A DNA stretch of 64,000 bases from positions 124,001 through 188,000 of the forward strand of contig JAABRD010000002.1 of the NCBI GenBank assembly GCA_011391085.1. Reading direction: 5' to 3'. The notes beneath the pieces were generated by a model that saw nothing but the letters and a program-made list of their open reading frames with translations, was not told the DNA's origin and ran no database searches. Origin of the DNA: Thiotrichaceae bacterium. GTDB lineage: Bacteria; Pseudomonadota; Gammaproteobacteria; Beggiatoales; Beggiatoaceae. How positions within the stretch are numbered: the stretch's first letter is position 1; every line of letters starts with the position of its first letter. The position numbers were made by a program, and so were the translations under genes. This document shows, piece by piece, positions 1,211 to 48,646 of the stretch.

Positions 1211-1388
1211 AGTAGTAATGCAATGTAGGTGAACTGTGATGTATATGATGTATTATGATGTATATGATTCAACAGATGAGAAAAAGGACGTGTCTTCATC
1301 CTCCTCTATAGTTTCTCATTCCCTCATACACATCACACATATCACACACATCACAGTTCCACACCATCACCCACATTGCCTCACTACC
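1211..1388. mobile_element. diverged MITE-like element, promoter side of the secreted Ig-like protein
   Basis: The ends are inverted: left GTAGTAATGCAATGTAGGT and right, read in reverse complement, GGTAGTGAGGCAATGTGGGT. They match the ends of the elements at 23816, 41338 and 45051. The interior is different, rich in ATGATGTAT/ACACATCA, with a second inverted pair AACTGTGATG/CATCACAGTT. No clear target duplication is seen. A remnant of the GAGTCCAAAGCGTAGC repeat lies just upstream at 1184-1205. Together with 1086-1183 these elements fill the gap before the next gene. Confidence 0.55.
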
Positions 1389-23804: not shown

Positions 23805-23815
23805 GAGTATTTTTT

Positions 23816-23979
23816 GGTAGTGAGGCAATGTGGGTTCTTTGTCTGAACTTTGATTAGAATGATTTTCAGATGGACTATGATTCGTCAAGCCTCCTTTCAT
23901 AGTTTTCATTTAATCATATAAATCACAGTTCAAGACGAAGAGAAACCTCTCGATATTTCATCCAGATTGCATCACTACC
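23816..23979. mobile_element. MITE-like element with 8-bp target duplication
   Basis: The 164-bp element has terminal inverted repeats GGTAGTGAGGCAATGTGGGT / GGTAGTGATGCAATCTGGAT (the right end read in reverse complement). It is flanked by perfect 8-bp direct repeats TATTTTTT at 23808-23815 and 23980-23987. It is nearly identical to 41338-41502 and 45051-45216. No transposase gene is inside. It lies over the 5' end of the membrane-protein gene. Confidence 0.85.
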
Positions 23980-24012
23980 TATTTTTTAAATGATGAATGA
24001 TTATTCTCTACC

Positions 24013-36186: not shown

Positions 36187-36256
36187 AGAAGTGCAATAAT
36201 TTTTATTGCGCTCCAGAGAAAATCGTACAGATTTAAAGGAATATTACTATAAGTAC
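36187..36256. repeat. short dispersed element, inverted copy of 8487-8548
   Basis: GTGCAATAATTTTTATTGCG, CTCCAGAG, GTACAGATTTA and AGGAATATTACTATA appear in the reverse order and strand of the 8487 element. Confidence 0.65.
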
Positions 36257-36354
36257 TGAAGCAGTAATTTTGCGGTATTTTCCCTCACCCCCGACCCCTC
36301 TCCCAGAGGGAGAGGGGCGAAACAAAATACGAGAAAATTTCTGCTTCAGTACTT
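36251..36354. terminator. nested inverted repeat between cyclase and NTPase genes
   Basis: The outer arms AAGTACTGAAGCAGTAATTT (36251) and the complement ending CTGCTTCAGTACTT (36354) enclose CCCCTCTCCC/GGGAGAGGGG. The structure could end cyclase transcription; it directly precedes the NTPase gene. Confidence 0.6.
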
Positions 36355-36367
36355 AGAATACCGCCAG

Positions 36368-41186: not shown

Positions 41187-41337
41187 GGTAATATTCTCTA
41201 GTGATGAAATAGTGAAATTATATAGTAATATTCCTTCTCATTTGTACCCCCCTAACCCCCCGCACGCGGGGGGTTGGGGGGGCTACAAGAGTAGAGGAAT
41301 ATCACTATAAAAGAGTTGCAAGATAATTACAAACTTG
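41187..41337. repeat. small inverted-repeat element with C-rich hairpin
   Basis: TATAGTAATATTCCTTCT at 41221 and the inverse AGGAATATCACTATA at about 41297-41311 enclose a hairpin CCCCCCTAACCCCCCGC / GGGGGGTTGGGGGGG. It looks like a second small element, adjacent to the MITE at 41338. This region and the following MITE make up most of the 529-bp gap before the OPT gene. Confidence 0.6.
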
Positions 41338-41502
41338 GGTAGTGATGCAATGTGGGTGAAATGTCTGAACTCTGATTAGAATGATTTTCAGATGGACTCT
41401 GATTAGTCAAGCCTCCTTTCATAGCCTTCATTTAATCATCTCAATCACAGTTCAAGACCTAAGAGAAACCGCACGATATTTCACCCAGATTGCATCACTA
41501 CC
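41338..41502. mobile_element. MITE-like element with 8-bp target duplication
   Basis: The 165-bp element has terminal inverted repeats GGTAGTGATGCAATGTGGGT / GGTAGTGATGCAATCTGGGT (the right end read in reverse complement), continuing TGAAAT.TC on both sides. Perfect 8-bp direct repeats CAAACTTG flank it at 41330-41337 and 41503-41510. It carries no transposase gene. The remaining 41511-41715, AT-rich with GAAAAAATTTGAAAAAATCC, leads into the OPT gene and should hold its promoter. Confidence 0.88.
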
Positions 41503-41715
41503 CAAACTTGGAAGAATGATTCAGGGGATCAACCGCTTTTAAAAGCAGTCTCTCTACGGGTTGCCAATCCTTATAAGGTAGTCAAGTAACCAATTATATG
41601 AATTTTAGATAAAAAATAACGTGCGACAAAAACAACTTTTTGAAAAAATTTGAAAAAATCCGTTACCTCTATTATAATTCATCTTCTTTATTTTAACCTA
41701 TGAAGGATGACCTAA

Positions 41716-45050: not shown

Positions 45051-45216
45051 GGTAGTGATGCAATGTGGGTTCTCTGTCTGAACTATGATTAGAATGATTT
45101 TCAGATGGACTATGATTAGTCATAGCCTCCTGTCATAGCCCTCATTTAATCATCTAAATCAAAGTTCAAGACGAAGAGAAACTGCACGATATTTCACCCA
45201 GATTACATCACTATCC
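45051..45216. mobile_element. MITE-like element without preserved target duplication
   Basis: The 166-bp element has GGTAGTGATGCAATGTGGGT at the left and GGATAGTGATGTAATCTGGG (reverse complement) at the right. The interior is shared with 23816 and 41338 (GAATGATTTTCAGATGGACT). The flanks AAAAAAAC and AAAATGGA do not match, so the insertion is older or has been rearranged. It lies in the upstream region of the cyclophilin gene. Confidence 0.8.
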
Positions 45217-45700: not shown

Positions 45701-45744
45701 ATTTGATTTTCTCGATGATGTTAGAGTATCATATTGGATAACCC

Positions 45745-45770
45745 GGAGTCCAAAACATGTTTTGGACTCC
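45745..45770. repeat. perfect 26-bp palindrome upstream of the restriction-modification gene
   Basis: GGAGTCCAAAACA then TGTTTTGGACTCC. It lies between the divergent lipoprotein gene and the MmeI-like gene, so the promoters of both must lie around it. Confidence 0.75.
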
Positions 45771-45805
45771 TTTTAACCAATCCCAACAAAATTTTCAATA
45801 TTCTC

Positions 45806-48646
45806 ATGACTCCCCAACATTTTATCACCAAATGGCAATCTTCGCAACTCAAAGAACGTTCCGCCTCGCAAGAACATTTTTTGGATATTTGTCAATTATT
45901 AGGCGAACCCACGCCGGCGGAGGCGGATCCGCACGGGACTTGGTATTGTTTTGAAAAAGGGACAACCAAAAGTGAAGGTGGCAAAGGTTGGGCCGATGTG
46001 TGGAAGCGGCATCATTTTGCTTGGGAATATAAAGGCAAACAGAAAGATTTAACCAAAGCCTTTGTCCAATTACAACGGTATGCCTTGGCCCTGGAAAATC
46101 CGCCATTGTTAATCGTCTCGGATATGGAGACGATTCAAATTTATACCAATTTTACCAACACCGTTCAAGACCTTCATACCCTCAAGTTAACCGATTTGGC
46201 CAATCCCCAGCGGTTGCAAATTCTCAAATGGGTGTTCACCGACCCCGAACAGTTGCGACCGGGGCGGACGCGGACCGCCGTGACGGAGGAGATTGCACAA
46301 GAGTTTGCCAGTTTAGCACAACGCCTCCGGGAACGTGGGCATCCACCGCCGCAGGTGGCGCATTTTATCAGTCAATTGTTATTTGGGATGTTTGCCGAAG
46401 CCGCGGGCTTATTTGACGGGCAACGGGTGTTAAGTGAGAGTTTAGCTGCCAGTGTGAAACGTCCTGAACATTGTACTGCAACGTTGCAAAGTTTATTTAC
46501 CACCATGCAACGCGGTGGGATGTTTGGCGTCCTTCCGATTGCCGAATTTAACGGTGGTTTGTTTGCTGAAGTGACGGTGTTACCGTTGCAAAAGGCCGAT
46601 ATTCAGTTATTATTGACCGTTGCCAGTCAAGATTGGAAGGACCTTGAACCGTCGATTTTTGGGACCTTGTTTGAACGTGGTTTAGACCCGGATAAGCGAA
46701 GTCAACTGGGGGCCCATTATACCGACCCTCTGTCGATAATGCGCTTGGTGCAACCTGTCGTGTTAGCCCCGTTGCAAGCCGCTTGGGCGCAGACGAAAGT
46801 GGCGATTCAAGCTGTGTTAAAAAAATCACGGGCGAAGAAAAGTCTTCCAAAACCAGCCCAAGATTTGTTCAATAGTTTCTTACAACGTTTGGCCCAAGTG
46901 CGCGTGTTGGACCCTGCCTGTGGGTCAGGGAATTTTTTATATCTCGTGTTGCGAGGTTTGAAAGATTTAGAACATCAAGCGATTTTGGAAGTGGAACAAC
47001 TGGCGTTAGGATTGGGAGGACAGTTTTCGATTCATACCGGGCCGCAAAATGTGTTGGGCATGGAAGTGAATCCTTACGCCGCTGAATTGGCACGAGTGAC
47101 GATTTGGATTGGCCATTTGCAATGGTTATTAGCACATGGCTATTCGATTCAGCAACATCCCATTTTGCAACCTCTGAATCAAATCGAATGTCAAGATGCC
47201 GTGATGACTGCGGCAGGGACCGAACCCGCGTGGCCACGGGCTGATTTCATCGTCGGCAACCCTCCCTTTTTGGGAGACAAGAAGATGATTAGCGTCTTAG
47301 GGGAGGAGTATGTGACACGGTTACGGAAGTTGTATCAAGGACGGGTGCCTGGTGGCGCCGATTTAGTCACCTATTGGTTTGAAAAGGCACGTACTCAGTT
47401 GGATAAAGGAGAAGTAACGGGGGTCGGTTTGGTTACCACTAATTCGATTCGTGGCGGGGCGAATCGCAAAGTATTGGAACGGATTCGAGAAGTGGGACCG
47501 ATTTTTGAGGCGTGGAGTGATGAAGCCTGGGTCAATGACGGCGCGGCAGTGCGAGTGTCGTTGGTGTGTTTTGGAGGGAAACGAGAGAAGGTTGTATTGA
47601 ATGGAGAAGAGGTGGAGGAGATTTTTGCGGATTTGACCGGGACCACAGCGGTAAATTTGACAAAGGCAAAACCATTGGCCAACAATTCAGAAGTTGCTTT
47701 CCAAGGAACAATTAAGGTTGGTCCTCTTGATATTGCGGGCGATTTAGCCAGAGAGTGGTTGTTATTACCTAAAAATCCAAATGGTCGTCCAAACAGTGAT
47801 GTTTTGCGTCCTTGGGCCAATGGCATGGACATTACACGGCGATCTTCCGATACCTGGATTATTGATTTCGGAGTGAATATGACAGAGGAGGAAGCCAGTT
47901 TTTATGAAAAACCGTTTGAGTATGTTGTTAAAAATGTTAAACCTCTTCGGGAAAACTTGAGATTTGATTCGCACCGGCAGAAATGGTGGTTACATGGTGC
48001 CCCTCGTCCGGCCATGCGAGAAACAATTAAACCACTTTCTCGTTTCATTATTACCCCTCGTGTTTCTAAACATCGCCTATTTGTTTGGATGGACAAAACG
48101 ATTTTGCCTGATTCCAGACTTTATGTGATTGCCCGTGACGACGACACCATGTTTGGCATTTTACATTCTCGTATACATGAAATTTGGAGTTTAGCAACTT
48201 GTTCATGGCATGGTGATGGTGATGAAGGTGGAAGACCTACTTATAACGCCCATTCTGTCTTTGCAACCTTCCCTTTCCCCGACGGTCTAACGCCCAACAT
48301 CCCAGCGACAGACTACGCCACCCATCCTCACGCCCAAGCGATAGCCACCGCCGCGCAACGCCTTCACGAATTACGAGAGAACTGGTTAAATCCCCCTGAA
48401 TGGGTAAAACGAGTCCCCGAAGTCGTCCCCGGCTACCCTGCCCGCCTCCTCCCCGTGGATGCCCAGGCTGCTGAACAATTGAAAAAACGCACCTTGACCA
48501 ATCTGTACAATGCCAAACCCCAATGGTTAGTTAATGCGCATCGTCAATTAGATGAAGCGGTGGCAAAGGCGTATGGATGGGAAGTGGAGTTGACGGAGGA
48601 GGAGGTATTGAAGAGATTGTTGGAATTGAATTTGAAGAGACTTTAA
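45806..48646 (+). CDS. MmeI-like type IIL restriction-modification enzyme (nuclease-methyltransferase fusion)
   Basis: The 946-residue product follows the single-chain MmeI plan. The N-terminal nuclease domain has D64 in GWADVW and E74-Y-K76 in FAWEYKGK, the same D-X9-E-X-K spacing as in MmeI. A helical spacer (~150-310) follows. The gamma-type N6-adenine methyltransferase domain has LGAHYTDPLS, DPACGSGNFLYLVL (motif I) and VGNPPFLGDKKM (motif IV). Next come a target-recognition region (~640-800, containing RPWANGMDITRR) and a C-terminal helical end. It should both methylate and cut DNA about 20 bp from its site. The ATG at 45806 is preferred; an in-frame ATG at 45734 reads through the palindrome. 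Confidence 0.88.
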   Translation: MTPQHFITKWQSSQLKERSASQEHFLDICQLLGEPTPAEADPHGTWYCFEKGTTKSEGGKGWADVWKRHHFAWEYKGKQKDLTKAFVQLQRYALALENPPLLIVSDMETIQIYTNFTNTVQDLHTLKLTDLANPQRLQILKWVFTDPEQLRPGRTRTAVTEEIAQEFASLAQRLRERGHPPPQVAHFISQLLFGMFAEAAGLFDGQRVLSESLAASVKRPEHCTATLQSLFTTMQRGGMFGVLPIAEFNGGLFAEVTVLPLQKADIQLLLTVASQDWKDLEPSIFGTLFERGLDPDKRSQLGAHYTDPLSIMRLVQPVVLAPLQAAWAQTKVAIQAVLKKSRAKKSLPKPAQDLFNSFLQRLAQVRVLDPACGSGNFLYLVLRGLKDLEHQAILEVEQLALGLGGQFSIHTGPQNVLGMEVNPYAAELARVTIWIGHLQWLLAHGYSIQQHPILQPLNQIECQDAVMTAAGTEPAWPRADFIVGNPPFLGDKKMISVLGEEYVTRLRKLYQGRVPGGADLVTYWFEKARTQLDKGEVTGVGLVTTNSIRGGANRKVLERIREVGPIFEAWSDEAWVNDGAAVRVSLVCFGGKREKVVLNGEEVEEIFADLTGTTAVNLTKAKPLANNSEVAFQGTIKVGPLDIAGDLAREWLLLPKNPNGRPNSDVLRPWANGMDITRRSSDTWIIDFGVNMTEEEASFYEKPFEYVVKNVKPLRENLRFDSHRQKWWLHGAPRPAMRETIKPLSRFIITPRVSKHRLFVWMDKTILPDSRLYVIARDDDTMFGILHSRIHEIWSLATCSWHGDGDEGGRPTYNAHSVFATFPFPDGLTPNIPATDYATHPHAQAIATAAQRLHELRENWLNPPEWVKRVPEVVPGYPARLLPVDAQAAEQLKKRTLTNLYNAKPQWLVNAHRQLDEAVAKAYGWEVELTEEEVLKRLLELNLKRL

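Follow-up and report, generated by a model that had tools for sequence, protein, structure and literature searches.

MITEs are already well known, the Beggiatoaceae included. Reviewed bacterial MITEs include Correia, ERIC and Chunjie, and ERIC reaches copy numbers in the hundreds, with 711 copies in Photorhabdus; the Rickettsia palindromic elements are named in the same review (PMC10969869). Two MITEs, the hupL MITE and the dsrA intron MITE, have been described in Ca. Thiomargarita nelsonii Bud S10. In the former, the inverted repeats are 19 bp and the direct repeat 10 bp long, and its parent was not found; the latter has TATAG ends; and one MITE of this strain has matches on 260 of 439 contigs (PMC4853749). 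The term "IS1" is absent from the text of PMC4853749. The element family described here, E1, resembles Correia, ERIC and Chunjie in being short, non-coding, intergenic and bounded by inverted repeats, with many copies and size variants (PMC10969869), but its sequence is unrelated to theirs, and in E1 one set of ends surrounds several unrelated cores. Similarly, the hupL and dsrA elements are MITEs of the same bacterial family, although they differ from E1 in ends and repeats. With the IS1 family (NF033558, PF03400), E1 shares GGTAGTG... ends and an 8-bp duplication; unlike IS1, it encodes no protein. To judge from the searchable literature, the IS1 parentage of E1 and the presence of one hairpin core in MITEs with unrelated ends are new: among open-licence papers, the T. 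nelsonii MITEs were found, with no IS1-derived MITE of the E1 kind and no report of shared cores.

The window, that is, the whole stretch of DNA analysed, comprises 64,000 nt of a Thiotrichaceae bacterium (Beggiatoaceae; GCA_011391085.1, contig JAABRD010000002.1, positions 124,001 to 188,000, forward strand). E1 denotes the family of the element at window positions 41338-41502, and its end sequence is GGTAGTGATGCAATGTGGGTGAT. The initial annotation had placed at these positions a 165-bp element with inverted repeats of about 28 bp and perfect 8-bp duplications, and the coordinates were reproduced, with CAAACTTG on both sides. The ends of this copy read GGTAGTGATGCAATGTGGGT; left and right agree over 28 bp with 93% identity and thus form an imperfect inverted repeat. 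A single long hairpin results when the strand is folded (z-score -8.26), and the closest other copies in the genome are 98-99% identical. The copy at 23816-23979 was also correctly described as having its own, different duplication, TATTTTTT, on both sides. Of two further copies proposed, the one at 45051-45216 is a genuine copy whose end had to be moved to 45215, and comparison of its flanks (AAAAAAAC / CAAAATGG) gave no duplication; the "diverged copy" at 1211-1388 does have E1-type ends, but its interior is a different core, and its flanks (GTCAGTAT / TTATTTTC) are likewise not duplicated. The E1 end, at three mismatches or fewer, occurs 8 times in the window versus 0 in 100 dinucleotide shuffles. 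Going beyond the initial annotation, E1 interiors are interchangeable, and the window copy represents core A, one of several core types. The features are collected in Table 1.

Table 1. Coordinates of the E1 element, its copies and neighbouring elements in the window.
Feature	Position	Strand	Remarks
E1 element, core A (main finding)	41338..41502	+	165 bp
Left terminal inverted repeat of this element	41338..41365	+	
Right terminal inverted repeat of this element	41475..41502	-	
Target duplication, left copy	41330..41337	.	CAAACTTG, 8 bp, perfect
Target duplication, right copy	41503..41510	.	CAAACTTG, 8 bp, perfect
E1 element, core A	23816..23979	+	164 bp; target duplication TATTTTTT at 23808-23815 / 23980-23987
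E1 element, core A	45051..45215	+	165 bp; no target duplication
Diverged E1-ended element, different palindromic core	1211..1388	+	178 bp; no target duplication
E2 element with core-B hairpin (as in other E1 elements)	36250..36355	+	ends TAAGTACTGAAGCAG; TA target type
E4 element, CCCCCCGCACGCGGGG core	41221..41309	+	ends TATAGTAATATTCC; TA type; 28 bp upstream of E1 41338-41502

In the whole genome (a 5.77-Mb draft of 140 contigs), the E1 end pattern at two mismatches or fewer was matched 485 times in forward and 499 times in reverse orientation, while the control, the same pattern read backwards, gave 0 and 0. These numbers correspond to about 490 E1 elements, or roughly 1.3% of the genome as an estimate for a mean length near 155 bp. 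Close reading covered the first 1.39 Mb and then a 0.79-Mb hold-out (2.18 Mb in total). The first part held 144 inward-facing end pairs, and an exact 8-bp duplication flanked 76 of 142 pairs; other lengths were nearly absent among these 142 (6 bp, 0; 7 bp, 1; 9 bp, 0; 10 bp, 0). The hold-out replicated this result, with an 8-bp duplication in 23 of 49 copies and a 9-bp duplication in 1. The 90 of 189 end pairs that have no perfect duplication are as expected of old or rearranged copies. The consensus of the insertion sites is symmetric and A+T-rich, T.CAAWWTTG.A. Two copies (L077:3412-3576 and L098:15299-15463) are nested in another E1 copy with the duplication GATTTTCA, and the related empty site gives 93 matches for each. 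Only 1 of 142 copies lies within an ORF of at least 150 aa, versus 61.5% for random placement.

Because E1 is strongly self-complementary and intergenic, it could be thought that exchange between repeats (recombination or gene conversion) multiplied it, or that it proliferated in the manner of REP/REPIN palindromes, with no target-duplicating transposition. This reading is extremely improbable: the ends are defined, the nested insertions have related empty sites, and exact 8-bp duplications flank 99 of the 189 intact copies in the combined 2.18 Mb and differ at nearly every site. For the E1 ends, the duplications already refute it. The same count supports the earlier description of E1 as non-autonomous and as duplicating 8 bp of target upon transposition. 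E1 elements are short, mostly 49-180 bp with peaks at 115 and 163-167 bp, and contain no transposase gene. Two pairs of E1 ends 2.4 and 3.7 kb apart (L071, L119) were considered as long elements and rejected, being unrelated end remnants whose left ends start as ordinary core-B copies.

Other genomes point to a probable source of the transposase. The same ends are present in a Thiomargarita MAG and in Ca. Thiomargarita nelsonii, and they are sparse in four sampled genomes of Beggiatoaceae. In T. nelsonii, an element of about 803 bp (L184:346-1148) has GGTAGTRATGCAATGTGGGTGAT at both ends, that is, the same 23-bp ends as E1, and encloses a decayed IS1 transposase, the readable part of which matches NF033558 (E=2.2e-24) and PF03400 (E=5.2e-9). 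This single decayed copy, which has no target duplication of its own, is the sole parent with exactly the E1 ends. IS1 transposases were found in 22 of 42 genomes of Beggiatoaceae; where the ends of the relatives' elements could be placed, the elements measure 708-834 bp and have GGTAGTG-type ends, and three of the relatives' elements (L188, L191 and L200) are flanked by 8-bp duplications. In the window genome, searched as a whole draft, the PF03400 profile gave no match and NF033558 nothing significant, and an IS1 family profile derived from the relatives gave one match, a fragment of 48 residues at the edge of contig C83. This fragment was rejected as the parent, since it lacks an E1 end and is cut off by the contig border, and no IS1-type transposase bearing E1 ends was found anywhere in the draft. 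For a MITE derived from IS1, such an autonomous partner in the genome is usual but not a strict requirement. The IS1 parent of E1 has presumably been lost, or lies in a portion of the genome missing from the draft assembly. Judged by sequence, the parent family of E1 is IS1, one of the three families (with ISL3 and IS66) that the initial annotation had proposed, and the duplications of E1 agree with the 8 to 9 bp of IS1-family insertions. The many copies with 8-bp duplications that it anticipated were indeed recovered by searching the genome with the ends, but a full-length parent appeared only in T. nelsonii, in decayed form, and not in this genome.

Another family that makes 8-bp duplications is IS6, and mobilisation of E1 by such a transposase, with GG..TG.TGCAA-type ends, would also account for the duplications; IS6-type ends, such as those of IS26 (GGCACTGTTGCAAA), resemble GGTAGTGATGCAA. 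This is very unlikely, however, as the T. nelsonii element with exactly the E1 ends encodes an IS1 transposase. As a candidate parent IS6 was rejected, given that no IS6 transposase (PF13610) is present in the window genome. In L141-L170, most of the relatives' E1-type copies are diverged and lack duplications, and the Thiomargarita SulCav MAG, whose DNA is for the most part about 65-77% similar, is too distant for orthologous empty sites.

At least five cores (A-E), unrelated to each other and mostly palindromic, occur between E1 ends. Core A (TCTGAACT...) was found 92 times inside E1 ends and once outside, and identity among its copies is 83-99% (mean 92%). For core B (CCCTCACCCCCGGCCCCTCTCCC...), 81 occurrences were inside E1 ends and 48 outside; both cores outnumber C (GTAGGGGCAACC), D (GGACTGSCAGTCC) and E (GACCTCSGAGGTC). 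Perfect 8-bp duplications flank 62/103 elements with core A, 29/49 with core B, 1/6 with core C, 1/4 with core D, 2/5 with core E and 4/18 unassigned elements; with at least one for each core, E1 units with each of the cores have transposed. The Thiomargarita MAG likewise has elements flanked by duplications, with cores B, D and E and with a sixth core (TTTGACAACTTTTGAAAAGTTGTCAAATC). A 54-bp E1 element (L074:27-80) has no core and has kept its target duplication; it resembles the outcome of a deletion at a short TCACCC repeat.

How the ends came to hold such different interiors can be explained in two ways. Core B also occurs in another family. E2 is a mini-transposon family distinct from E1, with TAAGTA ends and a TA target; its ends are TAAGTASYGAAGCAGAAATTTT with TA at the borders, and core B was found in 14 of 14 pairs and, in the hold-out, in 8 of 8. 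The core-B module common to E1 and E2 measures about 100 bp (about 50 bp in its single form), occurs in both orientations and reaches 96% identity, and the similarity between E1 and E2 ends near the module borders. For example, an E1 element (L111:3289-3451) and an E2 element (L075:11695-11874) have 100 bp in common at 96% identity. Moreover, an ORF of 1071 aa resembling a DNA methylase or restriction enzyme (L085:5967-9182, i.e., G000:C96:145967-149182) contains three in-frame core-B palindromes, which are read as peptides such as PSPPAPLPEGEG and leave the frame unbroken. None of nine homologs from other genomes in the bacterial family has these peptides; in a second genomic copy of the gene (L135), they occur as single or partial versions. 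Core-B-like modules of about 100 bp were also found on plasmids of cyanobacteria (Pseudanabaena, Leptolyngbya) and of Cupriavidus, at about 76-79% identity.

This distribution suggests that core B is independently mobile and entered E1 by insertion, and no clean E1 element predating such an insertion was found. More generally, core B, having no transposase of its own, may insert into mobile elements and genes and use unrelated MITE families as carriers (here IS1-type MITEs with 8-bp duplications and TA-target MITEs), with ends and cores behaving as exchangeable, recombining modules; we regard this tentatively, as a nearly balanced call. Alternatively, the cores are not inserted mobile palindromes at all, and E1 elements arose afresh when IS1-type ends came to flank repeats, or when abortive gap repair copied filler between the ends. 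We hold this to be possible, if somewhat doubtful. What the core types have in common with one another and with the IS1 parent is confined to about 23 bp of end, the rarity of cores C, D and E fits such an origin, and the apparent deletion in the 54-bp element implies that E1 interiors are altered by slippage or repair. On the other hand, core B has similar boundaries and the same length (about 50 or 100 bp) whether it lies in E1, E2 or a coding gene, so that for this core the insertion of a defined module fits better than de novo formation. Palindromes in frame within protein-coding genes are also characteristic of the Rickettsia palindromic elements, to which core B is similar in this respect; they differ from it in sequence and organism, and core B is in addition found inside two MITE families.

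Based on the results presented above, E1 is very probably a MITE of the IS1 family, with IS1-type ends, a noncoding core, mobilisation in trans, a unit defined by its ends, and an independently mobile core B. Each element would consist of about 23 bp of IS1-type end on either side of a non-coding, self-complementary core. An IS1 transposase supplied in trans would bind both ends, and insertion would proceed through an 8-bp staggered cut at the A+T-rich symmetric target, nearly always between genes. The ends rather than the core would set the transposable unit, as cores A, B, C, D and E lie within the same ends, each with target duplications. Core A is by appearance a resident part of E1, and core B would be an independent mobile palindrome that entered E1, E2 and, to judge from its distribution, a gene.

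The E1 result links a very abundant intergenic repeat of relatives of the giant sulfur bacteria to an IS1 parent. Ends and interiors of MITEs seem in this case to evolve as separate modules, and how MITEs gain new interiors thereby becomes testable by strain comparison. Since core B occurs in two MITE families and in frame in a protein-coding gene, MITEs may serve to disseminate palindromes of this sort.

Several other repeats accompany E1. Other palindromes are carried by two more families, whose ends are TATAGTRATATTC and GGTAGTGTTG. The TATAGTRATATTC-ended TA-type family, found at window positions 41221-41309 and at other loci, has at least three palindromic cores, and E1 is inserted in some of its copies with the duplication CAAATCTG. 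Three very abundant intergenic repeats (e.g., in L049 and L033) were counted in the 1.39 Mb: GGACTAGAGGCTT(TAGCCGG), 407 times; GGAGTACGGAATT, about 226 times; and the GAGTCCAAAGC type, about 196 times. At L112:8439-8749, an element with ends GGTAGTGTTGCAAAGGTAATGG and the core GGAGTACGGAATT is inserted within an E1 element, and a few members of the GGTAGTGTTGCAAAGGTAATGG-ended family have 8-bp duplications. Contig C10 starts with an E1 end that was considered as a long copy and rejected, as it reads as a core-A element interrupted by another repeat with the end GAGTTGTCCGGAAAT; this repeat is present also at C134 and C62. The repeat end GAGTTGTCCGGAAATAAAAATT is found at G000:C10:1-97, C134:289-385 and C62:54201-54264, once inserted in E1. 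Near an E1 copy of the window, positions 45734-48646 hold an ORF of 970 aa that is restriction/methylase-like by eye.
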